Below, piece by piece: positions 34,235 to 48,375 of a stretch of 64,000 nucleotides of DNA. The DNA lies in assembly GCF_002242685.1 (NCBI RefSeq), contig NZ_NBIM01000001.1:310001-374000 (forward strand), in the 5' to 3' direction. The position numbers were made by a program, and so were the translations under genes. The notes under the pieces were generated by a model, which was not told the origin of the DNA, ran no database searches, and saw only the letters and a list, made by a program, of their open reading frames with translations. Position 1 is the first letter of the stretch. Every line of letters starts with the position of its first letter. The DNA is from Oceanimonas doudoroffii. GTDB lineage: Bacteria > Pseudomonadota > Gammaproteobacteria > Enterobacterales > Aeromonadaceae.

Positions 34235-34253
34235 GCCTGAGCACTGACTGAAT

Positions 34254-34475: not shown

Positions 34476-34500
34476 ATATATATAATTATGAATTCATAAT
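34476..34500. promoter_or_regulatory. AT-rich operator candidate upstream of TRAP operon 1
   Basis: ATATATATAATTATGAATTC (34476-34495) matches 39351-39370 upstream of the hydantoinase gene at 18 of 20 bases. It overlaps a perfect 16-base palindrome, ATTATGAATTCATAAT (34485-34500). It lies 34 bases before the substrate-binding protein start, so it probably covers the promoter. The likely ligand is the GntR/FCD regulator at 38333-39028; this is inference. Confidence 0.6.
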
Positions 34501-34533
34501 GACGCAGACGACGTCCTAACCAAGGAGAAGGTA

Positions 34534-35544
34534 ATGGGAAACAATCTACACGCTTTCGGCGGTTTCTTTAAAAAGAGTTTGTTAACAATTTCGCTGGGGG
34601 CCACCCTGGCCACCGCCCAGGTGAATGCCGAGACCCTGCGGGTGGCCGGCAACTTTGCCGTGGACCACTCCAGCACCCTGGCCATGGAAGTGTTTAAAAA
34701 GGAAGTCGAGACGGCCACCGACGGCGATATTGAAGTCAATCTGTTCCCGGCCATGCAGCTGGGCGGTGCCTCCGAGAACGTGGATCAGGTGCGTTCCGGT
34801 GTGCTCAACATGACCTGGATTGGTGCCTCTTTTCTGTCGCGCACCGTGCCCGAGCTGGAAGCGGTGAGCCTGCCGTTTCTGTTCAAGGACCGGGACACCG
34901 CCTTTAAGGTCATCGACGGCCGGGTAGGGGACCTGCTTAACGAAAAACTGGCTGACAAGGGCTTTGTGGCCCTGGGCTTTATGGAGCTGGGTCCGCGTCA
35001 CATCACCAACAGTGTGCGTCCTATCGAGTCCATTGATGACTTTGACGGCCTCAAGATTCGGCTGCAGCCCAACGAAACCCACCTCAAAACCTTCCGCGCC
35101 CTGGGTGCCAGCCCAACCTCCATGGGCATCAACGAGGTGTATTCCGCCCTGCAGCAGAAGGTGATCGACGGTCAGGAAAACCCCTTCAGCATCATTCGCA
35201 AAAACAACTACCAGGAAGTGCAGCAGTACCTGACCGATACCGGCCATTTCTTTGACTTTATTGTGGTGGTGGCCAACAAACGTCGCTTCGACAAGCTGTC
35301 CGATGCCGAGCAGCAGGCGGTGCGCCAGGCCATGGCCAAGGCGGTGGAGTGGCAGCGTGAAAAGGCCGCCGAGGAAGATTTGGAGTCCCGTGATCAGCTG
35401 GTGGCTGCCGGCATGAAATTCAACAGCGTCAGCCCCGAACTGCACCAGCGAATGCAGGAGAAGACCGCGGGCATTATCGACGAGCTGAAAGAGCGCCTCG
35501 GTGATGAACTGGTGAACGCCGTACTGGAGGACGCCAAGTCATGA
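34534..35544 (+). CDS. TRAP transporter substrate-binding protein (DctP family)
   Basis: The periplasmic receptor of a TRAP importer, 336 residues. A signal peptide runs to about residue 32 (ends ATAQVNA-ET). DctP-family features: FAVDHSSTLAMEVFKKEVE, LFPAMQLGGASENVDQVRSGVLNMTWIGASFL, the arginine-containing FDGLKIRLQPNETHLKTFRALGASPTSMGINEVYSALQQKVIDGQENPFS (ligand carboxylate-binding region). The ligand is probably an organic acid but is not identified. AAGGAGAAGGTA precedes the ATG. It overlaps the DctQ gene by four bases. This is the first gene of a block that also encodes DctQ, DctM and a racemase-superfamily enzyme. Confidence 0.92.
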   Translation: MGNNLHAFGGFFKKSLLTISLGATLATAQVNAETLRVAGNFAVDHSSTLAMEVFKKEVETATDGDIEVNLFPAMQLGGASENVDQVRSGVLNMTWIGASFLSRTVPELEAVSLPFLFKDRDTAFKVIDGRVGDLLNEKLADKGFVALGFMELGPRHITNSVRPIESIDDFDGLKIRLQPNETHLKTFRALGASPTSMGINEVYSALQQKVIDGQENPFSIIRKNNYQEVQQYLTDTGHFFDFIVVVANKRRFDKLSDAEQQAVRQAMAKAVEWQREKAAEEDLESRDQLVAAGMKFNSVSPELHQRMQEKTAGIIDELKERLGDELVNAVLEDAKS

Positions 35545-36098
35545 CAACCGGTCATTCCGAGCAGCCGCACATGCTGAACGGAGCCGGGCCTCTGCCTACA
35601 CCGGCGGCGCTTGTCCGCCGGTACCTGCTGAGGCTGGATGCAGCCTCCCGCTATACCATCTGCGTCTGTATGGCGGTGATGGTATTGCTGGTCTCGGCTC
35701 AGGTGTTCTGTCGTTATCTGCTGGCCGAATCCATCGACTGGGCCGACGAAATGTCGCGTCTGGCCTTTGTCTGGGCGGTGTTTCTGGCCATTCCCCATGG
35801 CCTCAAGCATGGCGTTCATGTGGGCATCGATGTGCTGACCAACAAGCTGTCTCCCCGTCTGCAGGAAGGCCTTAGCCGGCTGATGATGCTGGTTAGCGGA
35901 CTCTTGATGGTGGTGGTGTGTTACCAGGCGGTACTGGTGGCCATCGACGGTTGGGGTGAGCTGATGCCCACCATTCCGGTCAGTGCCTCGGTGTTCTACA
36001 TCCCGGTGATGCTGAGCTGTGGCCATGGCCTGCTGCATCTGTTGTTCATGGCCTGGCAAGGCGCCCATGTCTGGGCTGACAAGGAGGAAGCCGCATGA
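35541..36098 (+). CDS. TRAP transporter small permease (DctQ family)
   Basis: The small membrane subunit, 185 residues, with four membrane segments at roughly 40-62, 76-95, 112-132 and 153-172. The family motif SAQVFCRYLLAESIDWADEMSRLAFVWAVFLA is clear, with the conserved Arg/Tyr and Glu that contact the large permease. It overlaps DctP and DctM genes by four bases on each side (ATGA), indicating coupled translation of the three subunits. Confidence 0.92.
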   Translation: MTTGHSEQPHMLNGAGPLPTPAALVRRYLLRLDAASRYTICVCMAVMVLLVSAQVFCRYLLAESIDWADEMSRLAFVWAVFLAIPHGLKHGVHVGIDVLTNKLSPRLQEGLSRLMMLVSGLLMVVVCYQAVLVAIDGWGELMPTIPVSASVFYIPVMLSCGHGLLHLLFMAWQGAHVWADKEEAA

Positions 36099-37375
36099 CC
36101 ACACTGGCGATTATCCTGTTCCTGGTGCTGGCCCTGCTGGGCATGCCCCTGGCCTTTTCTCTGGGCCTGGCGGCCCTGGGGGGACTGGCCTGGAGCGGCA
36201 TTGAACTGTCGGTGCTGCCCCAGCGCATGATGCACGCGGTCAACTCCTTTCCGCTGATGGCGATTCCGCTGTTCATGCTGGCGGGTGAGCTGATGGTGGG
36301 CGGTCAGGTGATGCAACGCACCATCGACTTTGCCAATGCTTTCGTCGGCCGGGTCAAGGGCGGTCTGGCCCACGTCACCCTGCTGTCCGGTCTGGGCCTG
36401 GCCTCGGTTACCGGTGCTGCCGTGGCGGGCGCCAGTGCCCTGGGCACCACCATGATGCCGGCGATGAAAAAGCACTACGACGCGGGCTTTGGCTCGGCGG
36501 TGGTGGCCTCGGCGTCCAACCTGGGACCCATCATTCCGCCCAGCGCGGCCATGATTGTCTACGCCCTGATGGCCGGCTCCTCGGTCTCCGTGGGTGGCCT
36601 GTTCATGGCGGGTGTGGTGCCCGGTGTGCTGCTGGTGGTGGGCATGATGGTGCTGTCGACCTGGATTGCGCACCGCAAGGGCTATCCGCCCACGGGTGAA
36701 CCCTTCAGCCTGAAGAACCTGCTGGTGCAGACCAAACGGGCCGGGGCCATCATGCTGATGCCGGTGATCGTTATCGGCGGCATTGTTGGTGGTGTGTTTA
36801 CCGCCACCGAAGGGGCGGCCATCGCCGTGGTTTACGCCTTTGTCATCGGCAAGTGGATTACCCGCAAGCTGGAATGGGTGGACTTGCCCGGCTGCATGTT
36901 CCGTGCCGCCCTGACCTCGGCGGTGGTGGGAGCGCTGATCGCCTTTGCGACGCCGCTGACCTTCCTGTTCACCATCGATCTCATTCCGATGCGCCTGTCG
37001 GAGCTCATTCAGAGCATCACCGACAACCCACAGGTGTTCCTGGCGTTGGTGATGGCGATGTTGCTGGTGGTGGGCATGTTCCTGGAATCAAACGCGGCCT
37101 ACATCATGCTGGTGCCGCTGTTTGCGCCCATCGCGCTGGCCTACGGTATCGACCCGCTGTATTTCGGCTTTCTGTTCGTGTTCAACCTGGTGATCGGCAT
37201 GATGACGCCGCCGGTCGGGGTGTTGCTGTTCGTGATATGCGGCATCGCCAAAATACCCATGTCTCAACTATTGCGTTACGTCTGGCCCTTTATTGCCCTG
37301 CAATACCTGGTGCTGGCGCTGTGCTGGATTTTCCCCGAGGTAGTGACGGCCCTGCCGCACGCCCTGGGTTACTGA
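36095..37375 (+). CDS. TRAP transporter large permease (DctM family)
   Basis: The large membrane subunit that carries the substrate with sodium, 426 residues and about 12 hydrophobic segments. DctM signatures: PLMAIPLFMLAGELMVGGQVMQRTIDFANAFVGRVKGGLAHVTLLSGLGLASVTGAAVAGASALGTTMMPAM (residue run shown in parts elsewhere in the family), SNLGPIIPPSAAMIVYALMAGSSVSVGGLFMAGVVPG, TEGAAIAVVYAF and NLVIGMMTPPVGVLLFV. The two helical-hairpin regions carrying the conserved Asn/Pro (SNLGPIIPPS and MTPPVG) bind Na+ in related structures. It ends 38 bases before the next gene with no terminator between. Confidence 0.93.
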   Translation: MTTLAIILFLVLALLGMPLAFSLGLAALGGLAWSGIELSVLPQRMMHAVNSFPLMAIPLFMLAGELMVGGQVMQRTIDFANAFVGRVKGGLAHVTLLSGLGLASVTGAAVAGASALGTTMMPAMKKHYDAGFGSAVVASASNLGPIIPPSAAMIVYALMAGSSVSVGGLFMAGVVPGVLLVVGMMVLSTWIAHRKGYPPTGEPFSLKNLLVQTKRAGAIMLMPVIVIGGIVGGVFTATEGAAIAVVYAFVIGKWITRKLEWVDLPGCMFRAALTSAVVGALIAFATPLTFLFTIDLIPMRLSELIQSITDNPQVFLALVMAMLLVVGMFLESNAAYIMLVPLFAPIALAYGIDPLYFGFLFVFNLVIGMMTPPVGVLLFVICGIAKIPMSQLLRYVWPFIALQYLVLALCWIFPEVVTALPHALGY

Positions 37376-37413
37376 TAACTGAATGAAACATAATGACAAG
37401 CAAGGAGCTAACC

Positions 37414-38145
37414 ATGACCAATCGTACTCTGCTGGGCGTACTGACCCCTTCTTCTAACACCACTCTGGAGCCGGTAACCGGCGATATTCTGCATGGCGTT
37501 AACGGTGTCAGCGCCCACTTTGGCCGCCTCAAGGTGACCGAGATCTCCCTGACCGACCAGGCCCTGAGCCAGTTCGACAACGAGCCTTTCCTGCAGGCAT
37601 CCCGGCTGCTGGCCGATGCCAAGGTGCAGTCCATCACCTGGAGTGGCACCTCTTCCGGCTGGCGTGGCTTTCAGGATGACGAGATCCTGTGTAAGGCCAT
37701 TACCGACGCCACCGGCATTCCGGCCACCACCTCGGTGCTGGCGCTGAACGAGCTGTTTGCACTGACCGGTGTCAAGCGCTTTGGCCTGGTGACCCCTTAT
37801 CTGCACGAGGTGCAGAAAAAGGTGGTGGCCACCTATGCCGATGCCGGCTTTGGCTGTGTCGCCGAGCGTCACCTCAATGACAAGGGCAACTTTTCCTTCT
37901 CCGAGGTGAGCGAGGACACCATCGAGCAAATGGTGCGCGAAGTGGCGGCCGAAGGCCAGTGTGACGCCATCACCATTTTCTGTACCAACCTGCGCGGTGC
38001 CCGCGTGGCGGCGCGGCTGGAACAGGAACTGGGACTGCCCATCTACGACACCGTCTCTACCGGGGTGTGGAAGGGCATGCTGCTGGCCGATGCAGATCCG
38101 AGCCAGATCCAGGGCTGGGGTTCTTTATTTTCGGTTAAACCGTAA
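37414..38145 (+). CDS. Arylmalonate decarboxylase/maleate isomerase superfamily enzyme
   Basis: A 243-residue member of the Asp/Glu racemase fold. The start GVLTPSSNTTLEPV matches maleate isomerases (PSSNTTxE). However, the position of the first catalytic cysteine is glycine: the loop reads WSGTSSGWRG (G78), as in arylmalonate decarboxylase (GTSLSFYRG, G74). The second cysteine is present in TIFCTNLRG (C190; C188 in the decarboxylase). So a one-cysteine decarboxylase-like or lyase-like reaction fits better than isomerisation or racemisation. AAGGAGCTAACC precedes ATG 37414. It is the last gene of TRAP block 1, so its substrate is probably the imported compound or a product of it. Confidence 0.75.
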   Translation: MTNRTLLGVLTPSSNTTLEPVTGDILHGVNGVSAHFGRLKVTEISLTDQALSQFDNEPFLQASRLLADAKVQSITWSGTSSGWRGFQDDEILCKAITDATGIPATTSVLALNELFALTGVKRFGLVTPYLHEVQKKVVATYADAGFGCVAERHLNDKGNFSFSEVSEDTIEQMVREVAAEGQCDAITIFCTNLRGARVAARLEQELGLPIYDTVSTGVWKGMLLADADPSQIQGWGSLFSVKP

Positions 38146-38158
38146 TTATATATTATAT

Positions 38159-38236
38159 AATTCATAAATAAGGCGGCCCGCCCGGATTGGGTAACACCTC
38201 TTAGCGGGCTGCCACAGTGATTTCTTATTCATAATT
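38159..38236. promoter_or_regulatory. Operator half-site candidates upstream of the GntR gene
   Basis: AATTCATAA at 38159-38167 and ATTCATAATT at 38227-38236 repeat the ATTCATAAT/ATTATGAAT core found in front of the two TRAP-locus blocks. They flank a hairpin and lie about 170 and 97 bases before the regulator start, as expected for autoregulation. The half-sites are less extended than those at 34476 and 39351. Confidence 0.4.
38172..38213 (+). terminator. Hairpin after TRAP block 1
   Basis: GGCGGCCCGC (38172-38181) pairs with GCGGGCTGCC (38204-38213) with one G-U pair and a 22-base loop. It follows the racemase-superfamily gene by 27 bases. The following sequence has only a short T stretch, so it is a modest terminator or an mRNA end-protecting hairpin. 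Confidence 0.45.
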
Positions 38237-38332
38237 CGATCGGGATCACCCTTGTCCGCCTCGGTCATACCGTTTTAGCCGGCAAGGGATTAAGGTACTC
38301 GATCACTAACATTCATATAACAGGAGCACGAT

Positions 38333-39028
38333 ATGGCAAGCAGTGGTAACACTCTGGGCCAAAGTTCCCTGCGGCGACGCTCATTGCATGAGGAAGTGGC
38401 CGACTGCGTGCGCACCATGATCATCGAAGGTGAGCTGAAGGAAGGGGAGCGCATCAACGAGCCGGCGCTGTGCAAGCAGCTGGATATCTCCCGAACCCCG
38501 TTGCGGGAAGCCCTCAAGGTATTGAACTCCGAAGGTATTGTGACCATTGAGCCCAACCGGGGCGCCCGGGTGGCGGTGATCACGCCGGAGGAAATTCGTG
38601 AACACTTTGAAATTATCTGCTCCCTGGAGCGTCGTGCCGCCGAGCTCACCGCCGAGCGTGCCACGGCCGCCGATCTGGAACAGCTGACCCGGCTGCAGCA
38701 GCAGCTGGAAGGCTACCATCAGGCTCAGGACAAGCAGCATTACTTTGAAATCAATCAGCATATTCATCGCCTGATCATCGAGCTGGCCGGCAACGACACC
38801 CTGATCCAGCTGCATCACCAGTTGATGAACAAGGTTAGCCGCGGCCGCTATCTGGCCATCGACTTTCATCATCGCTGGGACGAGTCCGTGGCCGAGCACC
38901 AGGCACTGCTGGAAGCCCTCAAGGCCGGTGACGGCGATCGGGCCGGCCGCATTCTGGCCGAGCACGTGATGCACACCGGCAACTTGCTGGTGCAGGAACT
39001 GGAGCAAAAACAACAAAAAGCGGGCTAA
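38333..39028 (+). CDS. GntR-family regulator, FCD (FadR-like) subfamily
   Basis: A 231-residue transcription regulator. The N-terminal winged helix (about 14-80) reads SLHEEVADCVRTMIIEGELKEGERINEPALCKQLDISRTPLREALKVLNSEGIVTIEPNRGARV in overlapping family motifs; the C-terminal FCD effector domain (about 95-225) has the metal-ligand pattern D/N...H...H: NQHIHRLIIELAGN, HHRWDESVAEHQALLEALKAGD and AEHVMHTGN. FCD regulators sense organic acids and repress breakdown operons. CAGGAGCACGAT precedes the ATG. Sitting between TRAP block 1 and the hydantoinase block, it most likely controls both through the shared AT-rich motif. Confidence 0.92.
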   Translation: MASSGNTLGQSSLRRRSLHEEVADCVRTMIIEGELKEGERINEPALCKQLDISRTPLREALKVLNSEGIVTIEPNRGARVAVITPEEIREHFEIICSLERRAAELTAERATAADLEQLTRLQQQLEGYHQAQDKQHYFEINQHIHRLIIELAGNDTLIQLHHQLMNKVSRGRYLAIDFHHRWDESVAEHQALLEALKAGDGDRAGRILAEHVMHTGNLLVQELEQKQQKAG

Positions 39029-39406
39029 GCCGCTGGCCAGGGCGGCGCCAGGCCCCGCTCTTGTTTTTTTGATGGTTTCTTCGTTTTTCTTTTTCTCTCT
39101 TTAACCTTCCTTTCTTCCTTTCTGCCAGCCGGTGCTCCGGCTGTTGCCTGACCGTCTTGGCTTTCCTCCCAACTGCCGGTCACGACATCGTGCTTCCGCG
39201 ATAGCCAGTGGTTTCTCAGTTGGTCTTCATATGAGGCGTGCCAGCTTTTTGCACAAAACTCGTTTGTTAACGATTTGTTTTATTTGTGCGACCCCGTTCA
39301 CATTCCCGTTACTGCCGGTTTGAAAGCCTCAATAAGCAATGATTAATTACATATACATAATTATGAATGCAATCTAGTGGATTAGAACAACATCAAGGAG
39401 TGACCC
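39029..39406. other. 378-base intergenic region before the hydantoinase gene
   Basis: Begins with an imperfect GC-rich hairpin region and a T7 run (about 39017-39070) that could end gntR transcription. It continues with a strongly pyrimidine-rich tract, TTTCTTCGTTTTTCTTTTTC and following, to about 39125. The last 70 bases are AT-rich and carry the operator candidate at 39351-39370 and a good ribosome site (CAAGGAGTGACCC) for the hydantoinase gene. No coding region is convincing here. Confidence 0.6.
39351..39370. promoter_or_regulatory. AT-rich operator candidate upstream of the hydantoinase operon
   Basis: ATATACATAATTATGAATGC contains the perfect 10-base palindrome CATAATTATG and matches 34476-34495 at 18 of 20 positions. 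It lies 37 bases before the hydantoinase start. Proposed site for the GntR/FCD regulator encoded just upstream. Confidence 0.6.
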
Positions 39407-40828
39407 ATGTCTGAGTTTGATCTGGTGATTCGAAACGGCCGCATTGCCACCGCCGCCGACGTGACCGACTGTGATATCGGTATCAAGGACGGCCGCATCG
39501 TGGCCCTGGGCCTGAACCTGGGCGAGGGCCAGGAAGAGATTGATGCCAGCGGCAAGCTGGTGCTGCCGGGCGGCGTGGACGCCCACTGTCACCTGGATCA
39601 ACCGATGCCGGACGGCCTGCGCATGGCCGACGATTTCTATACCGGCACCCGCTCCGCCGCCTGTGGCGGCACCACCACCGTCATGCCCTTCGCGGCCCAG
39701 GAAAAGGGCCAGTCGCTGAAAGCGGCGGTAGAGGATTATCATCGTCGCGCCGAGGGCAAGGCGGTGGTGGACTACGCCTTTCACCTGATCGTGAGTGACC
39801 CGACCGAAAAAGTGCTCAAGGAAGAGCTGCCGGAGCTGATTCGCCAGGGCTGTACTTCGTTCAAGATTTACATGACCTACGACGACCTCAAGCTCAATGA
39901 CGGTCAGATCCTCGACGTACTGGCGCTGGCCCGGGACGAGGGCGCCATGGCCATGATCCACGCCGAGAACGCCGACTGCATCGGCTGGCTGACCAAGCGG
40001 CTGATCGACGCCGGTCATACCGCCCCCAAATACCACGCCGCCGCCCGCCCCATGCTGGTGGAGCGGGAAGCGACCCACAGGGCCATTGCCCTGTCCGAGC
40101 TGGTGGACGTGCCCATTCTGATCGTGCACGTGTCCGGTGAGGAAGCGGTGGAGCAAATTCGCTGGGCTCGCAGTAAGGGCATCAGCATCTATGCTGAGAC
40201 CTGCCCCCAGTATCTGTTCCTCACCGCCGAAGATCTGGGCATTGACGGCTACGAAGGCGCCAAGTGCGTGTGCAGCCCGCCGCCCCGGGACGAGGCCAAC
40301 CAGCAGGTGATCTGGGACGGCCTGGAAGACGGCCTGTTTACCATCTTCTCCTCCGATCATGCGCCGTTCCGCTACGAGGACCCTCAGGGCAAGAAGCCGA
40401 ACGGCGAAGAGGTGGACTTCCCCTACATTCCCAACGGTATTCCTGGCCTGGAAACCCGCTTGCCGCTGCTGTTCTCCGAAGGTGTCAACAAGGGCCGCAT
40501 TACCCTTAACCGCTTTGTCGAGCTGACCGCCACCAACCCGGCCAAGCTCTACGGCCTGTATCCACAAAAGGGCAGCATTGCCGTGGGCGCCGATGCCGAC
40601 ATTGCCATCTGGGACCCCAAGCGTGAGGTGGTCATTCAGAACGAGTTGCTGCACCACGACGTGGATTACACCCCCTACGAGGGCCAGGCGGTGACCGGCT
40701 GGCCGGTACTGACCTTGAGCCGGGGCCGGGTGGTGTGGCGCGATGGTGAGGTGCTGGGCCAGGCCGGTGACGGCCGCTTTTTGCCCTGCGGCAAGCCGGA
40801 CATGGCCAAGCCCAAGGTACGCCGCTGA
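39407..40828 (+). CDS. D-hydantoinase/dihydropyrimidinase-family cyclic amidohydrolase
   Basis: A 473-residue zinc amidohydrolase that opens cyclic amides such as dihydropyrimidines, hydantoins or imides. Metal ligands are visible: GGVDAHCHLDQP (HxH at 60-62), the carboxylated lysine in SFKIYMTY (K153), histidines in MIHAENAD and LIVHVSGEEAVEQI, and the aspartate in FSSDHAPF. Substrate-loop features (TTVMPFAAQ, PKYHAAARP) fit the D-hydantoinase group rather than allantoinase, but the substrate cannot be fixed by eye. CAAGGAGTGACCC gives a strong ribosome site. It leads the second block of the locus, followed by an aminotransferase and TRAP genes. Confidence 0.92.
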   Translation: MSEFDLVIRNGRIATAADVTDCDIGIKDGRIVALGLNLGEGQEEIDASGKLVLPGGVDAHCHLDQPMPDGLRMADDFYTGTRSAACGGTTTVMPFAAQEKGQSLKAAVEDYHRRAEGKAVVDYAFHLIVSDPTEKVLKEELPELIRQGCTSFKIYMTYDDLKLNDGQILDVLALARDEGAMAMIHAENADCIGWLTKRLIDAGHTAPKYHAAARPMLVEREATHRAIALSELVDVPILIVHVSGEEAVEQIRWARSKGISIYAETCPQYLFLTAEDLGIDGYEGAKCVCSPPPRDEANQQVIWDGLEDGLFTIFSSDHAPFRYEDPQGKKPNGEEVDFPYIPNGIPGLETRLPLLFSEGVNKGRITLNRFVELTATNPAKLYGLYPQKGSIAVGADADIAIWDPKREVVIQNELLHHDVDYTPYEGQAVTGWPVLTLSRGRVVWRDGEVLGQAGDGRFLPCGKPDMAKPKVRR

Positions 40829-40905
40829 GCGTCAGGGAACGATTTCGGGCAGGGTGAACCGGGACGGTTCACTCGCCCATCAACTGAGCAGTTCAAGGAG
40901 TGAAT

Positions 40906-42072
40906 ATGTCATACAAAAGCGGGCGTCATTTTCTGCAGATCCCGGGCCCTTCACCGGTGCCGGAGCGTCTGGTTCGCGCCATGTCACAAGCGGTGATCGA
41001 TCACCGCGGGCCGGAGTTCGGAGAGCTGGGCCGTGACGTGCTGGCCGGCATCAAGCGCATTTTCCAGACCGACAGCCCGGTGGTGATTTATCCCGCCTCC
41101 GGCACCGGTGCCTGGGAAGCGGCTCTGGTCAATACCCTGAGTCCGGGCGACCGAGTGCTGATGTGTGAAACCGGCCAGTTCGCCACCCTCTGGCATGAGC
41201 TGGCCACTCGTCTGGGCGTGGAAGTGGAGTTCCTGCCCGGCGACTGGCGCCACGGGGCCGATCCGGTTGCCATTGCCGAGCGCCTGAGCCGGGACACCGA
41301 GCATCACATTCAGGCGGTGTGCGTAGTGCACAACGAAACCTCCACCGGCGTGACCAGCCGCATTGCCGATATTCGCCAGGCCATTAACGGCACCGGCCAT
41401 CCGGCGCTGTTTATGGTCGACACCATCTCCGGTCTGGCCTCGGCCGAATACAAGCACGATGAATGGGGCGTGGATGTGACCGTGTCCGGCTCCCAGAAGG
41501 GCCTGATGCTGCCGCCGGGCATCAGCTTCAACGCCCTGAGCGACAAGGCCCTGGCTCGCAGCAAGCAGTCCGCTTTGCCTAAGTCCTACTGGGACTGGGC
41601 GTCCATGCTGGCGGGCAACGCCACCGGCTATTTCCCCTACACGCCCGCCACCAACCTGCTCTATGGCCTGAAGGAAGCCATCGCCATGCTGGAAGAGGAA
41701 GGCCTGGATAACATCTTTGCCCGTCACCAGCGTCACGCCGAGGCCACTCGCCGGGCGGTGCAGGCCTGGGGTCTGGAAGTGCTGTGCCTCAATCCCGAGG
41801 AATACAGCCCGGTGCTGACCACGGTACTGCTGCCGGAAGGCCAGGATGCCGACGCCCTGCGCAAGGTCATTCTGGAGCGCTTCGATATGTCGCTGGGAGC
41901 GGGCCTTGGCAAGCTCAAGGGCCGGGTGTTCCGCATCGGTCATCTGGGCGACATCAACGATCTGACCCTGCTCGGCACCCTGGCCGGCGTCGAGATGGGC
42001 CTGGTGGCGGCGGGCGTGCCCCACAGCCCGGGTGGCGTTCAGGCCGCCATGCGTTTTCTTGCCGACCACTAA
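40906..42072 (+). CDS. Class-V aminotransferase (alanine/serine-glyoxylate type)
   Basis: A 388-residue PLP enzyme of the class-V group that includes alanine-glyoxylate, serine-glyoxylate and ureidoglycine-glyoxylate aminotransferases. Features: IPGPSPVPERLVRAMSQAVIDHRGPEFGEL at the N-terminus, YPASGTGAWEAALVN (cofactor phosphate loop), VHNETSTGV, DTISGLASAEYKHDEWGVDVTVSGSQKGLMLPPG with the PLP lysine (K198), and the C-terminal FRIGHLGDINDLTLLGTLAGVEMGL. ATG 40906 has AAGGAGTGAAT; GTG 40900 is the alternative. In this setting it could remove the amino group from an intermediate using glyoxylate or pyruvate. A hairpin follows before the next TRAP gene. Confidence 0.9.
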   Translation: MSYKSGRHFLQIPGPSPVPERLVRAMSQAVIDHRGPEFGELGRDVLAGIKRIFQTDSPVVIYPASGTGAWEAALVNTLSPGDRVLMCETGQFATLWHELATRLGVEVEFLPGDWRHGADPVAIAERLSRDTEHHIQAVCVVHNETSTGVTSRIADIRQAINGTGHPALFMVDTISGLASAEYKHDEWGVDVTVSGSQKGLMLPPGISFNALSDKALARSKQSALPKSYWDWASMLAGNATGYFPYTPATNLLYGLKEAIAMLEEEGLDNIFARHQRHAEATRRAVQAWGLEVLCLNPEEYSPVLTTVLLPEGQDADALRKVILERFDMSLGAGLGKLKGRVFRIGHLGDINDLTLLGTLAGVEMGLVAAGVPHSPGGVQAAMRFLADH

Positions 42073-42081
42073 GTGATTGCG

Positions 42082-42103
42082 GTGGCCCGCATGAGCGGGC
42101 CAC
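42082..42103 (+). other. Intercistronic hairpin before TRAP receptor 2
   Basis: GTGGCCCGC (42082-42090) and GCGGGCCAC (42095-42103) form a perfect 9-bp stem with an ATGA loop. No U-tract follows, so it is more likely an mRNA processing or stability element than a full terminator. Confidence 0.5.
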
Positions 42104-42146
42104 TTACTCATGCCATTGGGCATATTCAAGGAAGGAGAGTCTCATC

Positions 42147-43181
42147 ATGAGAAAACTGATCACCGCCACCCTGCTGGGCAGTGTCCTGGCATCCACACCG
42201 GCCCTGGCCGAGACCATCAACCTCAAGGTCATCGGGCAACCGCTGGCCACCGGCCTTATTCAGAAAAACAAGGAGCAGCCATTTTTTGAAAACCTGGCCG
42301 AAAACACCGGTCTGCCGATCAAGGTCAACTACAAGCCCCTGGACACGACCGGCATCAAGGACGTGGAGCAGCTCAGGGTACTGAAGTCCGGCCTGTTCGA
42401 TCTTATTTCATTGCGTATGTCCCAGGTATCCCGGGACGAGCCCACCATTCTGGGTCTGGATCTGGTCGGCCTGAACCCTAACTTCGAGCAGGGCCGCAAG
42501 GTGGTGGCCGCCTACAAGGACACGGTGGATCAGCGTCTGCAGGAGCGCTTCAACACCAAACTGCTGGGGGTCTGGCCCTTTGGCCCTCAGGTGCTGTTCT
42601 GTAACCACCCCATCAACAGCCTGGAAGACGTCAAGGGCCTGAAGGTGCGGGTGTATGACCAGAACCTGGCCCAGTTTGTGGAGTCCGTGGGCGGCGTGCC
42701 GGTGCCGGTGGCCTTTGGCGACGTACACCAGAGTCTGGCGCTGGGCATGATTGAGTGTGCCATTACCGGTCCCAGCTCGGCCAATTCCGCCGGCTGGCCG
42801 GAAGTGACCACCCACATGCTGCCCCTGGGCTTCCAGCTGGCGCTGAACGGCTATGGCATCAACCTCAAGGCCTGGAACAAGCTGGACGAACAGCAGCAGC
42901 AGACCCTGCAGGCCGCCTTTGACGAGCTGAACGAGGAAATCTGGCGCTACTCCGAAGAACTGTTCCTGGATGCCAGCCGCTGTAACGTGGGTGAGCAGCC
43001 CTGTGACACCGGCAAGTCCTTCAACCTGGTGGAAGTACCGGTGAACGAGGCCGACCTGGCCACCGTGGCCAATACCGTGACTCAGGTGTCTTACCCGACC
43101 TGGGCCGAGCAGTGCGACAAGTCCAATGCGCAATGTTCCGCCAACTGGAAACGGGACCTGGCGGATATCGTGGGCCTGTAA
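42147..43181 (+). CDS. TRAP transporter substrate-binding protein 2 (DctP family, Cys-rich C-terminus)
   Basis: A 344-residue periplasmic receptor: signal peptide 1-22 (MRKLITATLLGSVLASTPALA), then the DctP fold with LKSGLFDLISLRMSQVSRDEP, FGPQVLFCNHPINSLEDVKGLKVRVYDQNLAQFVESVGGVPVPVAFGDVHQSLALGMIECAITGPSSANSAGW. The C-terminal part holds four cysteines (SRCNVGEQPCDTG and EQCDKSNAQCSANW), unusual for DctP proteins and likely disulfide-bonded in the periplasm. It differs clearly from receptor 1, so it should bind a different ligand. AAGGAGAGTCTCATC precedes ATG 42147. A strong hairpin separates it from its permease genes. Confidence 0.9.
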   Translation: MRKLITATLLGSVLASTPALAETINLKVIGQPLATGLIQKNKEQPFFENLAENTGLPIKVNYKPLDTTGIKDVEQLRVLKSGLFDLISLRMSQVSRDEPTILGLDLVGLNPNFEQGRKVVAAYKDTVDQRLQERFNTKLLGVWPFGPQVLFCNHPINSLEDVKGLKVRVYDQNLAQFVESVGGVPVPVAFGDVHQSLALGMIECAITGPSSANSAGWPEVTTHMLPLGFQLALNGYGINLKAWNKLDEQQQQTLQAAFDELNEEIWRYSEELFLDASRCNVGEQPCDTGKSFNLVEVPVNEADLATVANTVTQVSYPTWAEQCDKSNAQCSANWKRDLADIVGL

Positions 43182-43186
43182 CCCTT

Positions 43187-43214
43187 AACAACGCCGGCCT
43201 GTGCCGGCGTTGTT
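43187..43214 (+). terminator. Strong hairpin between TRAP receptor 2 and its permease genes
   Basis: AACAACGCCGGC (43187-43198) and GCCGGCGTTGTT (43203-43214) pair perfectly (12 bp, CTGT loop), followed by GTCTG. It is placed where partial termination or 3'-end protection would give more receptor than permease, a common arrangement for binding-protein transporters. Confidence 0.6.
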
Positions 43215-43321
43215 GTCTGATGAGATTTCAAGTGGATCGGTTGGCGATATGGGCCTCGCCGGTCCCACGTCCGGCAACAGGGTGATGGCTGCCCTGGCGC
43301 CGGTGACAAGGAGACGTTGAC

Positions 43322-43930
43322 ATGAAGCGCATAGAGCAAATGGCCAGCATGGCCTTTGGCGGCATGTTTCTGCTGTTGTCGCTGATGATTGCGGTAGAGA
43401 CCCTGCTGCGCAAGTTTTTCAAGATATCCCTGCAGGGGGTCGATGAGCTGAGCGGTTACGCCCTGGCGGTAGGCGCCACCCTGGCGTTCACCATCGCCCT
43501 GTTCGGACGGGCGCACATGCGCATCGACATTTTTCACGAGCGGCTGCCCAAAGGTCTGCAGAGCGTGCTGAATTGGCTTTCCGCCCTGTTCATGTGCGGC
43601 CTGGGCCTGTTTATGGTGTGGGTGTGCGTGAATGTGGTGCTGGAAACCCTGGACTACGGCAGCACCTCCCAGACGCCCTGGGCGACCCCGCTGATTTATC
43701 CGCAGAGCGTGTGGATGGCGGGCCTGGCGGTATTTGCCCTGGTGGCCCTGGGCTATGGCCTGCGCGCCAGCTGGCTGTTGGCTTCTGGCCGGCACCAGAC
43801 ACTGAACAATGAATTCAACCCCAAGGGGGTGAGTGAAGAGCTGAAGGAAGAGCTGGAAGATTTTGCCCAGCGCCAGCAGCAACAGGATCAAGCGACCGCG
43901 GCACAGAAGCTGGCCGGGGAGGGTGCGTAA
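43322..43930 (+). CDS. TRAP transporter small permease 2 (DctQ family)
   Basis: A 202-residue small permease with four membrane segments (about 8-28, 42-62, 82-105 and 132-152) and the family region LRKFFKISLQGVDELSGYALAVGATLAFTIALFGRAHMRIDI. The C-terminal 45 residues form a long charged, glutamine-rich cytoplasmic tail (EELKEELEDFAQRQQQQD), longer than usual. CAAGGAGACGTTGAC is the ribosome site. Stop and start codons of this gene and the DctM gene share one base (TAATG). Confidence 0.9.
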   Translation: MKRIEQMASMAFGGMFLLLSLMIAVETLLRKFFKISLQGVDELSGYALAVGATLAFTIALFGRAHMRIDIFHERLPKGLQSVLNWLSALFMCGLGLFMVWVCVNVVLETLDYGSTSQTPWATPLIYPQSVWMAGLAVFALVALGYGLRASWLLASGRHQTLNNEFNPKGVSEELKEELEDFAQRQQQQDQATAAQKLAGEGA

Positions 43931-45219
43931 TGACTGTAACCACAGTTTTTATCGGCTTTTTCGCCATGCTCGGCATGTTGTTGCTGGGCGTTCCCATCGC
44001 CGTGGCCATGGCCCTGATTGGGGTGATTGGTGGCATCATGGTGTTCGATTGGACTTTTATGGACTCTATCGGTGCCGTCGTCTGGAGCGTGCACAACGAG
44101 GCGCTGCTGACCGCCATTCCGCTGTTCATTCTGCTGGGCGAGCTGCTGCTGCGCAGTGGAATTGCCGACAAGATGTTTCTGTCCATGGCGGCCTGGTTGG
44201 GCCGGTTGCCAGGTGGTCTGCTGCACACCAACATCGGCTCCTGTGCGCTGTTTGCCGCCACCTCCGGCTCCTCGGTGGCCACCGCCGCCACCATCGGCAC
44301 GGTAGCGCTGCCGTCGCTGCAGGAGCGCAAGTACTGCATGCGCCAGTCCCTGGGCAGTCTGGCCGCCGGCGGCACCCTGGGGATCCTTATTCCGCCCAGC
44401 GTCAACATGCTGATCTACGGCTCGCTCACCAACAACTCCATCGGCAAGCTGTTTATGGCGGGTCTTATTCCCGGTGTCATGCTGAGTCTACTGTTCATGG
44501 TGTATATCGCCTTTGCCAACCGGGGTCAGGGCAGTGTGCGGGAAGAAAAGCTGAGCCTGTCCGAAAAGCTGCGCCTGTCCCGCCATCTGATCCCGCCGGC
44601 GGTGGTGTTCGGCATCGTCATGGGCAGCATCTACAGCGGCCTGGCCACCGCCACCGAGTCGGCCGCCCTGGGGGTGATGACCGCACTCTGGTTTGCCTGG
44701 CGCTCCGGCAAGCTGTCGCTGACCTTCCTGCAGGAATGTTTTGTACAGACCGCGCGCATTACCGGCATGATTTTGCTTATCATCACCGCCGCCTTCGTAC
44801 TTAACCTGACCATCAGCCTGACCGGGGTGGTGGATGAACTGACCGCCTGGGTGACTTCCTTTGGTCTCAGTGTGACCGGTTTGCTGCTCATTCTCATTCT
44901 GTTCTACCTGGCCCTGGGCATGTTTATGGACGTGCTGTCCATGCAGGTGCTGACCATTCCCATCACCTATCCCATCGTGACCGCTCTGGGTGTGGATCCC
45001 ATCTGGTACGGCGTGTTTGTGGTACTGATGTGCGAGCTGGCGCTGATCACGCCGCCGGTGGGCATGAACCTGTTCGTGGTGCAGAGTGTGCGCAAGGACG
45101 GCGGCAATATCAGCGATGTGATGTGGGGCGTGGTGCCGTTCATCCTGATCATGATGCTGTTCACCTTCAGTCTGATGATGTTCCCGGAGATTGCCCTGTG
45201 GCTGCCCAACCTGATGTAA
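43930..45219 (+). CDS. TRAP transporter large permease 2 (DctM family)
   Basis: A 429-residue large permease with about 12 membrane segments. Signatures: IPLFILLGELLLRSGIADKMFLSMAAWLGRLPGGLLHTNIGSCALFAATSGSSVATAATIGTVALP, GTLGILIPPSVNMLIYG, ATATESAALGVMTALWFAW and LALITPPVGMNLFVVQSV. The GSSVATAATIG loop is typical of the second DctM subgroup, distinct from the permease at 36095-37375. Its 3' end overlaps the amidase gene by 22 bases. Confidence 0.92.
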   Translation: MTVTTVFIGFFAMLGMLLLGVPIAVAMALIGVIGGIMVFDWTFMDSIGAVVWSVHNEALLTAIPLFILLGELLLRSGIADKMFLSMAAWLGRLPGGLLHTNIGSCALFAATSGSSVATAATIGTVALPSLQERKYCMRQSLGSLAAGGTLGILIPPSVNMLIYGSLTNNSIGKLFMAGLIPGVMLSLLFMVYIAFANRGQGSVREEKLSLSEKLRLSRHLIPPAVVFGIVMGSIYSGLATATESAALGVMTALWFAWRSGKLSLTFLQECFVQTARITGMILLIITAAFVLNLTISLTGVVDELTAWVTSFGLSVTGLLLILILFYLALGMFMDVLSMQVLTIPITYPIVTALGVDPIWYGVFVVLMCELALITPPVGMNLFVVQSVRKDGGNISDVMWGVVPFILIMMLFTFSLMMFPEIALWLPNLM

Positions 45220-46613
45220 CCCAAAGCTGGCGCCTCGGCGCCCTTGAGCTGGCGGCGGCTTATGCCGCCGGCACCCTGACCCCGCTGGCGGTGGTCGAGG
45301 CGCTGGGCGAGCGTATCGCCCGGCTCAACCCTGAGCTTAATGCATTTATCACTTTTAACCCGGCGGCCGCTGAGGAAGCGGCCGCCGCCACCGCGCGCTG
45401 GGCCGAGGGCCGGCCCCTGAGCCCGTTGGATGGCGTGCCGCTGACGGTCAAGGATCACCTCAACACGCAAGGGCTGGCCACTACCTGGGGTAACCGGGCC
45501 CTGGCCGGCAATATCGCTAGCGAAGACGAGCTGGCGGTGTCCCGCTGCCGGGCCGCCGGGCTGGTGATCCTGGGCAAGACTAACGTGCCCGAGTTCACCC
45601 TGGAAGGCTATACCGACAACCCCCTGTTCGGCGTGACCCGTAACCCCTGGAACCCGGCGCTGACCCCCGGCGGCTCCAGCGGCGGCGCGGTGGCGGCCCT
45701 GGCCGCCGGCCTGGGGCCACTGGCGCTGGGCACCGACGGCGGCGGCTCCATTCGCCGGCCGGCGTCTCATACCGGCCTGGTGGGGCTCAAGCCTTCCATC
45801 GGTGCCGTGGCCCGGGTCGGCAGCCTGCCTCAGGTGATGCTCGACTTTGAAGTAGTGGGGCCGCTGGCCCGCAGTGCCGCTGATGCCGAAGCCCTGTATC
45901 GCATTATCAGTGGCCCCGATGTGCGGGACCCGGCGTCCTGGCGCACTCGTCCCGAGGCACCGGCCGGCAAGCTTCGCATTCACTATGTGCCCCGTTTTGG
46001 TGACCAGCCCTTGCATGCCGAGATTGCCGGGAACGTGGAGCAGGCGCTGGCGGTGTTTGCGCGCCAGGGCCATCAAGTTACCCGGGGTGAGCTGCCGTTT
46101 TCCCTTGAGCCGGTGGACAAGTTCTGGCCCATGCTGGGTGCTGCGGCGGTGGCGGCCATTTTCCGTGCCTTTCCCGAAACCGAGCCCGAGGCCGCCGGGC
46201 GTTTTCGCGATATGGCCGGGCAGGGCAGGCAACTGTCGGCCTCCGATTATCTGTGTGGCCTGGACGGCATTCGCCGCTTTCGCCGTACCGTGGCCGAGGC
46301 CTTTGTTGATATCGACATCATCGTCACGCCCTCGGCGGCGGCCCTGCCCTGGCCGGCGGAGCAACCTTATCCGGGCGAGATTGACGGCCGGCCGGTGGGC
46401 CCCCGGGGTCACGCCATTTATACCGGCTGGGTCAATGCCTGCGGCCATCCGGCCATCAATTTGCCGGCGGCGCCCTCGGCGGCTGGCCTGCCTATCGGCT
46501 TTCAGCTGGTGGCCGGAATGAGCCAGGATGAGCTGCTGCTGCGGCTGGCGGCGGACTATGAACGGGAAAGTGGACGGGGCTGGCAATGGCCGGCGCTGGC
46601 AGAAACCAAATAA
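45198..46613 (+). CDS. Amidase-signature family hydrolase
   Basis: A 471-residue amidase with the Ser-cisSer-Lys triad: lysine in PLTVKDHLNT, cis-serine in TPGGSSGGAVAAL and nucleophile serine in GTDGGGSIRRPAS. It hydrolyses an amide to acid and ammonia. GTG 45198 is proposed as start because GGAG lies eight bases before it and the conserved SWRLGALELAAAYAAGTLTP follows soon; it overlaps the TRAP permease gene by 22 bases. Other in-frame starts upstream would read far into the permease. In the locus it could act on the half-amide left after ring opening by the hydantoinase-family enzyme. This order of reactions is inference. Confidence 0.88.
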   Translation: MAAQPDVTQSWRLGALELAAAYAAGTLTPLAVVEALGERIARLNPELNAFITFNPAAAEEAAAATARWAEGRPLSPLDGVPLTVKDHLNTQGLATTWGNRALAGNIASEDELAVSRCRAAGLVILGKTNVPEFTLEGYTDNPLFGVTRNPWNPALTPGGSSGGAVAALAAGLGPLALGTDGGGSIRRPASHTGLVGLKPSIGAVARVGSLPQVMLDFEVVGPLARSAADAEALYRIISGPDVRDPASWRTRPEAPAGKLRIHYVPRFGDQPLHAEIAGNVEQALAVFARQGHQVTRGELPFSLEPVDKFWPMLGAAAVAAIFRAFPETEPEAAGRFRDMAGQGRQLSASDYLCGLDGIRRFRRTVAEAFVDIDIIVTPSAAALPWPAEQPYPGEIDGRPVGPRGHAIYTGWVNACGHPAINLPAAPSAAGLPIGFQLVAGMSQDELLLRLAADYERESGRGWQWPALAETK

Positions 46614-46626
46614 CAGGATGAGCACC

Positions 46627-47400
46627 ATGGAACAACAAGTACAACAGCAACAACAGATTCAGCAGGCGGTGGCCCGGGTGCTGGCCGCTTACGAGAGCGG
46701 GACCCAGTTCGAGGCCGGTGAGGGGCCGAAAACCGTGCAGCAGGCCTACGCCATTCAGGATGGCGTGGCCCGCCACCTGTGGCCGGCCGAGCGCACGCAC
46801 TGCTGGAAGGTGGGGTCCCCCAACCGGGATACCGAACCCTACAGTGCGCCCATTCCGCCCCAGAAGGTGTATGACAGCGGTGAGAGCCTTAATGGCGCCG
46901 ATTTTCACATGATTGGTATCGAGGCGGAGCTGGCCTTTCGAGTCACCCAGGCCCTGCCGGTGCGTGCCCAGGCCTACAACGGGCAGGAAGTGCGCGCGGC
47001 GCTGGGCGAGCTGTGCGTGACCCTGGAGCTGGTGGATACCCGGCTGCGAGAATGGCAGCAAACCAGTGCCCTGTGGCGACTGGCCGACAACCAGATCAGC
47101 GGCGGCCTGGTGGTGGGCAGCGGCATTGAAGACTGGCAGGACCGGGATCTGGCGCTGCAGCCGGTGCAGCTGACCGTGAACGGCGAGGTGCTGGCGGACA
47201 AAAGCGGCGGTCATCCCCTGGGCGACCCCACCATGCTGCTGACCTGGGCGGTCAATCATCTGGTGGCGCGCAACCAGGGGCTTCAGCCTGGCGATCTGAT
47301 CACCACCGGCAGCTGGACCGGCATGAAGTTTATCGAGCCCTGCGCCGATATTCGGGCGGTGTTCCCCGGCATTGGCGGGGTAGCCCTGTCTATCGCATAA
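46627..47400 (+). CDS. FAH-family hydratase/decarboxylase (2-keto-4-pentenoate hydratase-like)
   Basis: A 257-residue member of the fumarylacetoacetate hydrolase fold. Features: YAIQDGVARHLW, KVGSPNRDTEP, the metal-binding IGIEAELAFRV and CVTLELVDTRL, and NQISGGLVVGSGIEDWQDRDL, followed by HPLGDPTMLLTWAVNHLVARNQGLQPGDLITTGSWTG. The E-x-E...E metal-ligand pattern matches 2-keto-4-pentenoate hydratases, which hydrate or decarboxylate keto acids. ATG 46627 is chosen for its spacing to AGGATGAG; ATG 46618 is an alternative. The gene follows the amidase by 13 bases, so it is in the same operon. Confidence 0.85.
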   Translation: MEQQVQQQQQIQQAVARVLAAYESGTQFEAGEGPKTVQQAYAIQDGVARHLWPAERTHCWKVGSPNRDTEPYSAPIPPQKVYDSGESLNGADFHMIGIEAELAFRVTQALPVRAQAYNGQEVRAALGELCVTLELVDTRLREWQQTSALWRLADNQISGGLVVGSGIEDWQDRDLALQPVQLTVNGEVLADKSGGHPLGDPTMLLTWAVNHLVARNQGLQPGDLITTGSWTGMKFIEPCADIRAVFPGIGGVALSIA

Positions 47401-47418
47401 GGTGAATTAAAAGGCGCC

Positions 47419-48375
47419 GTGCTGCCCGATAAGGAGGATATTATCGCCTGGTTACTGCCCGGCGGCCTGTGTGCCGCCATCATGCTGGCCCTGCTGCTGC
47501 CGGGCCCCGGTGTCTGGCTGGCCCAGTGGCAGCCGCTGCCCTGGCTGGTGGCGGTGATCTTTCTGGTCAATGGCCTGCAGACTCGAGTGCATGAACTCAG
47601 GCCCGAAGCGGGCTTTGGCCGAGTATTCGGCCTTGCACTGGTTATCAGCCTGCTGCTGTCCCCCCTGTTGGGGGCACTGCTGTATCACTTCAGCGGGTTG
47701 GCGCCGGGCCTGGCGCTCGGCCTGCTGGTGGTGTCTGTGGTGCCGCCGACCCTGTCGTCCTGCGTGGTGCTGACCCGGCTCAGCGGCGGCAATGCCCAGT
47801 GGTCGCTGTTTATGACCCTGGGGCTGAATCTGCTGGGTATTATCACCATTCCGTTGATGCTGAGCCTGCTGATCGGCAGCAGTGGTGTGCTGTCACCCTG
47901 GCCCTTGCTGCACAAGCTGTCGCTGATGGTACTGCTGCCCTTTGTGCTGGGTATGGTACTGCGGCGGCTGCTGGGGGCCAGGGTGGTGCGGCGCTGGATG
48001 ACGGTGGTGCCGACCCTGAGTGTGGTCACCACTGCCTGGATCACCCTGTCTACCAGCCGGCCGGCCCTGCTGGCGTTGGAAGGGGTGGACTTACTGGCGC
48101 TGGCGGCCTGGTCGCTGCTGTTGCACGGTATTCTGCTGGCGCTGTGCCGGCTGGCGGGCAGGGGACTGGCCCGACCGGCACGGCTGGCGCTGCTGTTTAC
48201 CGCCGCCCAGAAAACCACGCCGGTGGCGGTCAGCGTGCTGGTGGCCATGAGTGCCGCACAGGGCCTGGCGGTAGTGGCCTGCCTGGTGTTTCACTTTCTG
48301 CACATGCTGGCCGACGCCCTGCTGGCGTCGCGCATTGCGGCACGCACGGCGGCCATGGTTCGCGCCGAGGCTTAA
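47419..48375 (+). CDS. SBF-like (bile acid:sodium symporter fold) carrier
   Basis: A 318-residue membrane protein with about ten hydrophobic segments, including IIAWLLPGGLCAAIMLALLLPG, LPWLVAVIFLVNGLQTRVHEL, GLLVVSVVPPTLSSCVVLTRLSGGNAQWSLFMTLGLNLLGI and RLALLFTAAQKTTPVAVSVLVAM. The paired VVPPT and QKTTP motifs match the SBF-like (YfeH/BASS-related) family, which move organic anions with sodium. GTG 47419 is the proposed start, 18 bases after the FAH-family stop, with AAAAGGCG-like pairing upstream. It may export or import an intermediate of the same pathway. Its 3' end overlaps the convergent kinase gene by four bases. Confidence 0.82.
   Translation: MLPDKEDIIAWLLPGGLCAAIMLALLLPGPGVWLAQWQPLPWLVAVIFLVNGLQTRVHELRPEAGFGRVFGLALVISLLLSPLLGALLYHFSGLAPGLALGLLVVSVVPPTLSSCVVLTRLSGGNAQWSLFMTLGLNLLGIITIPLMLSLLIGSSGVLSPWPLLHKLSLMVLLPFVLGMVLRRLLGARVVRRWMTVVPTLSVVTTAWITLSTSRPALLALEGVDLLALAAWSLLLHGILLALCRLAGRGLARPARLALLFTAAQKTTPVAVSVLVAMSAAQGLAVVACLVFHFLHMLADALLASRIAARTAAMVRAEA

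Follow-up and report, generated by a model that had tools for sequence, protein, structure and literature searches.

A conserved Oceanimonas gene cluster with two TRAP importers, a hydantoinase and a one-cysteine racemase-fold enzyme probably acts on ureide- or hydantoin-type compounds

What compounds are taken up and broken down by the 13 plus-strand genes at 34534-48375 of a 64,000-nucleotide stretch of Oceanimonas doudoroffii DNA (the window; positions 310,001 to 374,000 of contig NZ_NBIM01000001.1), and do these genes serve one pathway? The cluster spans about 14 kb and every named gene in it is an open reading frame. It encodes two tripartite ATP-independent periplasmic (TRAP) importers, a hydantoinase, an amidase, a class-V aminotransferase, an FAH-fold enzyme, a racemase-fold enzyme with one catalytic cysteine (AMD), a carrier and an FCD regulator. 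This gene list, given by the first-pass annotation, is borne out by the open reading frames and by Pfam, which was run for 10 of the 13 proteins and assigned each at least one family above cut-off. The cluster's probable role is the uptake and dismantling of nitrogen-rich ring compounds akin to purine breakdown products. Judged from gene families and neighbourhoods, we lean towards a ureide/hydantoin regulon that would take up one or two external carboxylated hydantoin- or ureide-type compounds and end in glyoxylate or glycine, the likely product. Allantoin and other products of urate or of oxidised nucleobases belong to this chemical family.

The grouping of these genes is more than chance. 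All 13 are collinear in five loci of Oceanimonas, Zobellella and Oceanisphaera (L003, L004, L006, L007 and L010; L numbers denote loci and G numbers genomes), and all 13 families are present, in changed order, in 3/3 Marinobacterium loci. Related clusters also occur on a Rhodobacterales plasmid and in other proteobacteria. On a Defluviimonas plasmid the identities are 54–64% for the first importer (TRAP1), 54% for AMD, 63–65% for the second importer (TRAP2), 69% for the aminotransferase, 59% for the hydantoinase, 50% for the amidase and 32% for the FAH-fold enzyme, and a GntR homologue is found there as well. Large subsets of the cluster are found in G816, G820, G533, G461, G969 and a Sinorhizobium plasmid. 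A single catabolic regulon that imports and opens a cyclic amide or ureide had been proposed, to be doubted if homologous clusters never kept these enzymes together. The conserved-neighbourhood comparison was run and the enzymes are kept together in several lineages, which supports the single regulon and leaves the single-pathway reading unrefuted on this point.

Among 23 genus-level genomes, 10 have both AMD and the aminotransferase, one has AMD only (G002), one has the aminotransferase only (G008, a genome 84% complete) and 11 have neither (one-sided Fisher p = 9.8e-5, kinship ignored). AMD was counted as present at 81% identity or above, leaving aside weaker matches (E about 1e-7 to 1e-16) in some genomes. 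The transketolase gene was located in ten cluster-less relatives, six of which were read. In G013 only about 10 bp separate the point matching 34285, where similarity to the window ends, from the point matching 51002, where it starts again; a gap of about 160 bp (G007) or 130 bp (G016) stands in place of the missing stretch in two others, and some 2–3 kb of other sequence in G004, G006 and G012. The missing stretch also takes in the window genes at 48.4–51.0 kb, and its right-hand limit therefore does not mark where the cluster ends. G002 has the carrier gene immediately ahead of the gene found at 51 kb in the window.

The hydantoinase/dihydropyrimidinase-type cyclic amidohydrolase (39407-40828, plus strand; Amidohydro_1, 93.8 bits) scores above curated cut-offs in NF009941 (832 bits, cut-off 647) and TIGR02033 (576 bits, cut-off 393) and falls below that of the allantoinase AllB model TIGR03178 (272.5 bits, cut-off 357.85). 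Its His-x-His, Lys, two His and Asp, which we take to be the metal ligands, align with those of solved D-hydantoinases. Reductive pyrimidine breakdown, in which dihydrouracil or dihydrothymine would be opened by a dihydropyrimidinase, draws on the same scores: the enzyme is above the dihydropyrimidinase models, and no other gene of the genome matches at E <= 1e-80. We nevertheless consider that route improbable. Within the cluster, to which the search for them was confined, neither dihydropyrimidine dehydrogenase nor beta-ureidopropionase is among the genes identified, and the aminotransferase is of the glyoxylate type.

A ureide or hydantoin substrate is consistent with the bond between the hydantoinase and AMD. 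With AMD as the sole query (E <= 1e-30; 369 and 398 genomes searched), matches turned up in 2 class-level and 16 phylum-level genomes, the window's own excluded, which amount to 17 distinct genomes. Of the 19 matches, 18 each served as the centre of a fetched locus of about 20 kb; the remaining one, the second copy in G454, lies in the adjoining stretch and stands outside the 18-locus count. In 12/18 of these loci AMD has a hydantoinase (identity 50% or higher) no further than about 10 kb away. The genomes concerned hold 0–3 hydantoinase genes each at this identity, and a simple calculation from this puts the chance expectation well below one case. AMD-centred plasmid regions show the same in 7 of 12, chosen by hand from 233 records. 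In Leptolyngbya and Rhizobium johnstonii, annotated amidohydrolases below the threshold adjoin AMD. DUF3830 genes adjoin AMD in Rhizobium and Paraburkholderia plasmids (L146 12073-12480, L152 12031-12450).

AMD itself (37414-38145, plus strand; PF17645 Amdase, 78.3 bits) has Cys190 in 142/142 aligned sequences, and Gly78 at the other catalytic position is conserved at 1.00. Two further cysteines, Cys93 (141/142) and Cys148 (134/142), are also conserved. Arylmalonate decarboxylase (AMDase, EC 4.1.1.76) is characterized, in the sections of PMC4996985 drawn on here, by catalytic Cys188, Gly74 replacing the second cysteine, Pro14-Pro15, Gly189, the ILLSCGGL motif and a hydrophobic pocket. The cysteine and glycine have their equivalents in Cys190 and Gly78 of AMD. 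The motifs do not: AMD has Pro12-Ser13 for Pro-Pro, Cys190-Thr191-Asn192 instead of CGG, and His35, Arg38 and Glu43 where the AMDase pocket is hydrophobic. The score against the AMDase model NF052327 is 66 bits, below its cut-off of 225, and identity with the Bordetella-type AMDase was rejected on the motifs and this cut-off. By structure comparison the fold is that of maleate isomerase and AMDase, with the two not separated (Z within 1) and EutA absent from the list; the EutA model gives a weak match (68 bits, cut-off 318). The two catalytic cysteines of maleate isomerase are not both present, AMD having Gly at the first position as placed through the AMDase alignment rather than a direct one. 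The label 'arylmalonate-decarboxylase-like' thus holds for the fold and fails for several of the published motifs. Based on its CTN motif, AMD is assigned to a separate large family distinct from AMDase. A protein search with AMD scored 7,999 candidates, 6,973 of them at E <= 1e-20, and the names among the 120 matches listed, where given, are racemase or maleate isomerase. The AMD family has no established job.

In cyclic imide breakdown, succinimide or maleimide would be opened to a half-amide, the amidase would produce the dicarboxylate and a maleate-isomerase-like enzyme would yield fumarate. This is very improbable, as AMD has Gly where superfamily racemases have their other catalytic Cys, and the aminotransferase and the FAH-fold enzyme are left without an evident role.

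Neighbours of the cluster homologues in other genomes point to ureide/hydantoin chemistry derived from nucleobases, in a minority of loci. Hydroxyisourate-hydrolase-like genes lie beside TRAP1 in Defluviimonas (one), G533 (two) and G1171 (two), that is in 3/6 TRAP1 loci outside the Oceanimonas group and Marinobacterium. The Defluviimonas protein is above the Pfam cut-off and below that of TIGR02962 (75 versus 87.45 bits); one G1171 copy is above the Pfam cut-off and the other copies are identified by 33–46% tblastn identity. In G533 a UraD gene stands between dctP1 and AMD (TIGR03164, 134 bits, cut-off 96), while in Defluviimonas one lies about 3 kb beyond dctP1, adjoining an annotated urate pathway. 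Relatives of PuuE are found near AMD in G454 (57 and 39% identity), G461 (41%; 299 bits, cut-off 425) and Salipiger (39%), and a weak one in G1171 (33%, no Pfam family at 1e-6). A ureidoglycolate-lyase relative is near AMD in G454, and in G820 urate genes are 13–40 kb from AMD. In Caballeronia the neighbours of AMD include a nucleobase symporter and an amidohydrolase that matches 8-oxoguanine deaminase below threshold (416 versus 532 bits). In G969 the bhcRABCD genes, all five above NCBIfam cut-offs, start about 0.7 kb from AMD, and in Defluviimonas malate synthase G is about 10 kb from AMD; both systems assimilate glyoxylate. The substrate had been proposed as a cyclic amide, imide or ureide. 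These neighbours favor the ureide/hydantoin part of that proposal, and imide and dihydropyrimidine substrates look less likely from them.

Two observations accompany these loci. Tandem hydroxyisourate-hydrolase-like pairs adjoin TRAP1 in two genomes of different classes (L129 4332-4691 and 4721-5071; L192 6770-7111 and 7263-7595). In 12/12 aligned HyuE-like proteins the second catalytic cysteine is missing from its presumed position, and both are missing in 7/12, so these are not ordinary racemases; as neighbours in a minority of loci, they too speak for ureide/hydantoin chemistry. Homologues of HyuE/allantoin racemase with neither cysteine (L007 9220-9918, L010 9267-9950, L163 7794-8546 and others) may form a non-racemase family.

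A more specific proposal is that the CTN family is a new class of ureide-breakdown enzyme acting beside the hydantoinase on oxidised nucleobase products such as 5-hydroxyhydantoin or alloxanate. After TRAP import, AMD would decarboxylate or isomerise the compound (in some species together with a UraD-like enzyme), the ring would be opened to ureidoglycolate, FAH cleavage would give glyoxylate and urea, and transamination would yield glycine. Ureidoglycolate would be the direct ring-opening product of 5-hydroxyhydantoin, and the hydroxy-carboxy carbon of the UraD substrate is also present in alloxanate. We rate this version as unlikely.

The aminotransferase (40906-42072, plus strand; Aminotran_5, 79.5 bits) is BhcA-like and probably glyoxylate-linked. 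It scores 442 bits against the BhcA model NF045640, below the cut-off of 650, and is 97% identical to the Oceanimonas sp. CHS3-5 homologue. An Asp-His-Arg motif, which probably matters for BhcA, is present in 7/7 aligned sequences including one BhcA above the cut-off. By this comparison the window enzyme is a BhcA paralogue. The motif stands where 3isl has Gly-Gln-Phe, the Gln of which is presumably important for ureidoglycine:glyoxylate aminotransferase (PucG). The enzyme scores 154.6 bits to PucG versus 361.8 to plant AGT1, and the PucG identity was rejected on score and motif together. At the same place AGT1 has Asp-Tyr-Arg, whose Tyr and Arg make contact with the side chain of serine, while a His-Arg there binds a carboxylate in phosphoserine aminotransferase (passages of PMC6797613). 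The comparison of Asp-His-Arg with these two enzymes suggests that an acidic amino donor and glyoxylate as acceptor are likely.

This enzyme and the amidase-signature hydrolase (45198-46613, plus strand; PF01425, 322.9 bits), whose start overlaps the end of dctM2, form a separable branch. The sister species G002 keeps TRAP1, AMD, GntR, the hydantoinase (98%), TRAP2, the FAH-fold enzyme and the SBF-like carrier, and has lost both the aminotransferase and the amidase (L185, 10389-10475 and 13557-13640). About 40 bp of the amidase start is still present, which speaks for deletion. The aminotransferase occurs only where the amidase does in 11/11 tabulated AMD loci, 7 of them from the host's group and Marinobacterium, and the amidase is found without the aminotransferase in L108, L129 and L175. 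Neither is seen in G002, G820 (in the stretch read) or Paracoccus (L148), despite the hydantoinase, AMD and TRAP2. From this pattern the amidase and aminotransferase look like a side branch and hydantoinase, AMD and FAH like the core, and the FAH-fold enzyme, being kept in G002, appears to work without the other two. The linear order of the first-pass annotation (ring opening, ammonia loss, transamination, release of a small acid, here read as the FAH step) is therefore not supported as it stands, since G002 keeps all but the amidase and the aminotransferase. In G820 (L169 6719-8425) a glutamate-dehydrogenase-type protein with an N-terminal response-regulator domain adjoins the FAH gene.

The same enzymes could serve a dihydroorotate or hydantoin-5-acetate route. 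The ring would be opened to N-carbamoylaspartate, the amidase would free aspartate, the BhcA-like enzyme would transfer the amino group of aspartate to glyoxylate, forming oxaloacetate and glycine, and oxaloacetate would be decarboxylated by the FAH-fold enzyme. The Asp-His-Arg of BhcA, an aspartate:glyoxylate enzyme, the confinement of the aminotransferase to amidase-bearing loci among the AMD loci tabulated and the preference of TRAP importers for carboxylates all fit. It leaves unexplained the hydroxyisourate-hydrolase-like and UraD genes beside TRAP1, as well as the FAH gene kept without amidase and aminotransferase in G002 and, in the stretch read, G820, and we judge it unlikely.

Both importers show the expected gene set of binding protein, small permease and large permease. 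TRAP1 consists of DctP1 (34534-35544; PF03480, 274.6 bits), DctQ1 (35541-36098) and DctM1 (36095-37375; 64% to an annotated Defluviimonas TRAP large permease). TRAP2 consists of DctP2 (42147-43181; PF03480, 84.4 bits), DctQ2 (43322-43930; PF04290, 71.8 bits) and DctM2 (43930-45219; 65% to an annotated Defluviimonas TRAP large permease), all six on the plus strand. Three of the six were run against Pfam; the names of DctQ1, DctM1 and DctM2 follow from gene position, from sequence and from homologues that carry a TRAP permease annotation. The best solved TRAP structures are 4p47 for DctP1 (203 bits) and 2pfz for DctP2 (54 bits); these best matches carry general names only, and no ligand was assigned from them. 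The two importers keep different partners elsewhere, which makes plausible the earlier suggestion that two receptors mean two entry substrates. As a cluster marker DctP2 was rejected, with 5/244 genomes in the order of G533 and 5/200 in that of G816 (counts including the centre) and few AMD genes at its other loci. The purine-use genes of marine bacterioplankton given in parts of Braakman et al. 2025 (PMC11698098) include a purine TRAP transporter and an allantoin racemase, so TRAP import of compounds of this kind is not a new proposal.

One regulon is supported by upstream elements shared by two transcription units. AT-rich, partly palindromic candidate operators lie upstream of TRAP1 (34479-34496, plus strand) and of the hydantoinase gene (39354-39371, plus strand), each a zero-mismatch match to an 18-base pattern. 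A related AT-rich element (38143-38167, no strand assigned) follows AMD and precedes the regulator gene. All three are recognisable, with substitutions, in the 7/7 Oceanimonas, Zobellella and Oceanisphaera loci displayed. Across the whole genome the 18-base pattern has two zero-mismatch matches, both in the cluster, and four with three mismatches, one of them overlapping 34479-34496; the reversed-pattern control has 1 match. A 15-base form gives five matches at four places in the window versus 0.06 expected. The GntR/FCD regulator (38333-39028, plus strand; PF00392 GntR 61.5 bits, PF07729 FCD 90.6 bits) may bind these elements. The Marinobacterium regulator is 47–50% identical and in opposite orientation.

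Several results weigh against a single ureide/hydantoin regulon. The element is absent upstream of DctP1 in 3/3 Marinobacterium loci (the hydantoinase upstream region was not displayed). Six of the 18 AMD loci lack a hydantoinase at the threshold, one of which, G454, has a split copy, and G1171 shows no close hydantoinase in the stretch read. AMD neighbours vary (ABC, MFS, NCS2 and deaminase-type genes), so AMD and hydantoinase may serve several substrates. Relatives of the aminotransferase (66–74% identity) occur in other contexts, and those outside such clusters (most of L011-L082) have other neighbours. The window cluster has no hydroxyisourate-hydrolase, UraD or other urate-type gene, and none (0/8) of the TRAP1 loci tested from the Oceanimonas group and Marinobacterium has a hydroxyisourate-hydrolase or UraD gene. 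A handful of loci supply the urate and glyoxylate links. The canonical UraH-PuuE-UraD-ureidoglycolate lyase set is elsewhere in the genome (near G000:C1:2046000), and the cluster-less relatives G004, G006 and G010 also have UraD, so plain allantoin is not an obvious extra substrate. DctP2 relatives are often without the cluster, with AMD in 3/9 fetched loci other than G533 and G816.

This last count also suits a division of the cluster into two or three functions that are independent of each other and share one regulator, such as TRAP1-AMD on one side and hydantoinase-TRAP2-FAH on the other. So does the finding of AMD with other transporters at several loci, and of TRAP2 and a HyuE-like gene without other cluster genes, in the stretches read, in the Rhizobium rosettiformans, Neorhizobium and Marinovum plasmids, G1045 and G908. 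We hold such a division to be quite unlikely, given that the same families are reassembled in different orders in distant lineages and that AMD and the aminotransferase are gained or lost together within the genus.

Two further arrangements were noted at these loci. In G454 (L106) the hydantoinase gene is split into two parts separated by about 9 kb, and the locus also contains a transposase-like gene. In L030, L040, L066 and similar loci, close aminotransferase relatives adjoin a large FAD/Fe-S D-2-hydroxyacid-dehydrogenase-like gene and a crotonase gene, a recurrent setting that differs from the present cluster.

For the ureide/hydantoin regulon, a sequence of steps can be proposed from the enzyme families. 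TRAP1 and TRAP2 would import carboxylated hydantoin- or ureide-type compounds, and the hydantoinase would open the cyclic ureide to an N-carbamoyl (ureido) acid. AMD may use one-base chemistry at a position adjoining a carboxylate, be it for isomerisation, decarboxylation or proton transfer, either on the ring or on the ring-opened acid. The FAH-fold enzyme would split the product and end the core route. In the separable branch the amidase would strip amide or carbamoyl nitrogen, and the BhcA-like aminotransferase would form glycine by amino-group transfer between an acidic amino acid and a small acid that is probably glyoxylate.

The FAH-fold enzyme (46627-47400, plus strand; PF01557, 45.0 bits) is of the 2-keto-4-pentenoate hydratase/4-oxalocrotonate decarboxylase type, with best PDB matches 1sv6 and 2wqt (42.9 bits) and 5d2i (38.7 bits), and the SBF-like carrier (47419-48375, plus strand; PF13593 SBF_like, 139.7 bits) closes the cluster. 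The regulator gene is flanked by gaps of 187 and 378 bp and the remaining gaps are at most 140 bp; several TRAP genes overlap one another, and the start of the amidase gene also lies in an overlap. Inspected by eye, the genes flanking the cluster look like those of a transketolase and a sensor kinase. The stretch 34200-48500 has no Rfam match at gathering thresholds, and the sigma-70 promoter search gave 0 versus 3.9 expected by shuffle.

Among open-licence PMC papers, the searches listed none that describes this gene set, judged by title, opening of the abstract or passages. The parts of PMC4016543 and PMC5812351 drawn on here describe a ureidoglycine carbamoyltransferase route and, in a TRAP review, AMDase neighbourhoods, each with other gene sets. 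From the genomic bond between AMD and hydantoinases, which in some loci extends to urate-type and glyoxylate-assimilation genes, a small set of candidate substrates can be drawn up. If the ureide/hydantoin reading is true, the cluster would be a further route for the use of ureide nitrogen and carbon by marine and soil bacteria, beside the canonical allantoin route, and would throw light on the natural role of AMDase-like enzymes.

Among known systems, ectoine utilisation (Eut/Doe with TRAP) has in common a TRAP importer and the weak EutA match of AMD, but none of the other identified window genes is an ectoine gene. The Bordetella-type AMDase shares with AMD the fold, one catalytic Cys, Gly for the other Cys and nearby TRAP genes; it differs in CGG versus CTN, PP versus PS, a hydrophobic pocket versus charged residues, and the hydantoinase neighbours of AMD. 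The beta-hydroxyaspartate cycle (BhcABCD) has the paralogous aminotransferase, and its operon is adjacent to the cluster in G969, whereas the 13 window genes include no BhcB, BhcC or BhcD and the aminotransferase is below the BhcA cut-off. Hydantoin utilisation (racemase, D-hydantoinase, carbamoylase) shares a ring opener of the D-hydantoinase family and, in several cluster versions, HyuE-like homologues, which lack catalytic cysteines of the racemase; the 13 window genes include no nitrilase-type or M20 carbamoylase. The canonical urate/allantoin pathway (PuuD, UraH, UraD, PuuE, ureidoglycolate lyase) was rejected for the cluster itself: UraH, UraD, PuuE/AllB and ureidoglycolate lyase are not among the ten cluster proteins scanned, the other three being TRAP permeases, and the set is located elsewhere in the genome. 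It uses PuuE in place of the cluster's hydantoinase and has no counterpart of the amidase, FAH-fold and one-cysteine enzymes. Ureide ring chemistry and a glyoxylate end product, both proposed here for the cluster, are nevertheless shared along with racemase-family homologues, and canonical urate/allantoin genes lie physically near cluster homologues in Defluviimonas and G454 and, at 13–40 kb, in G820.

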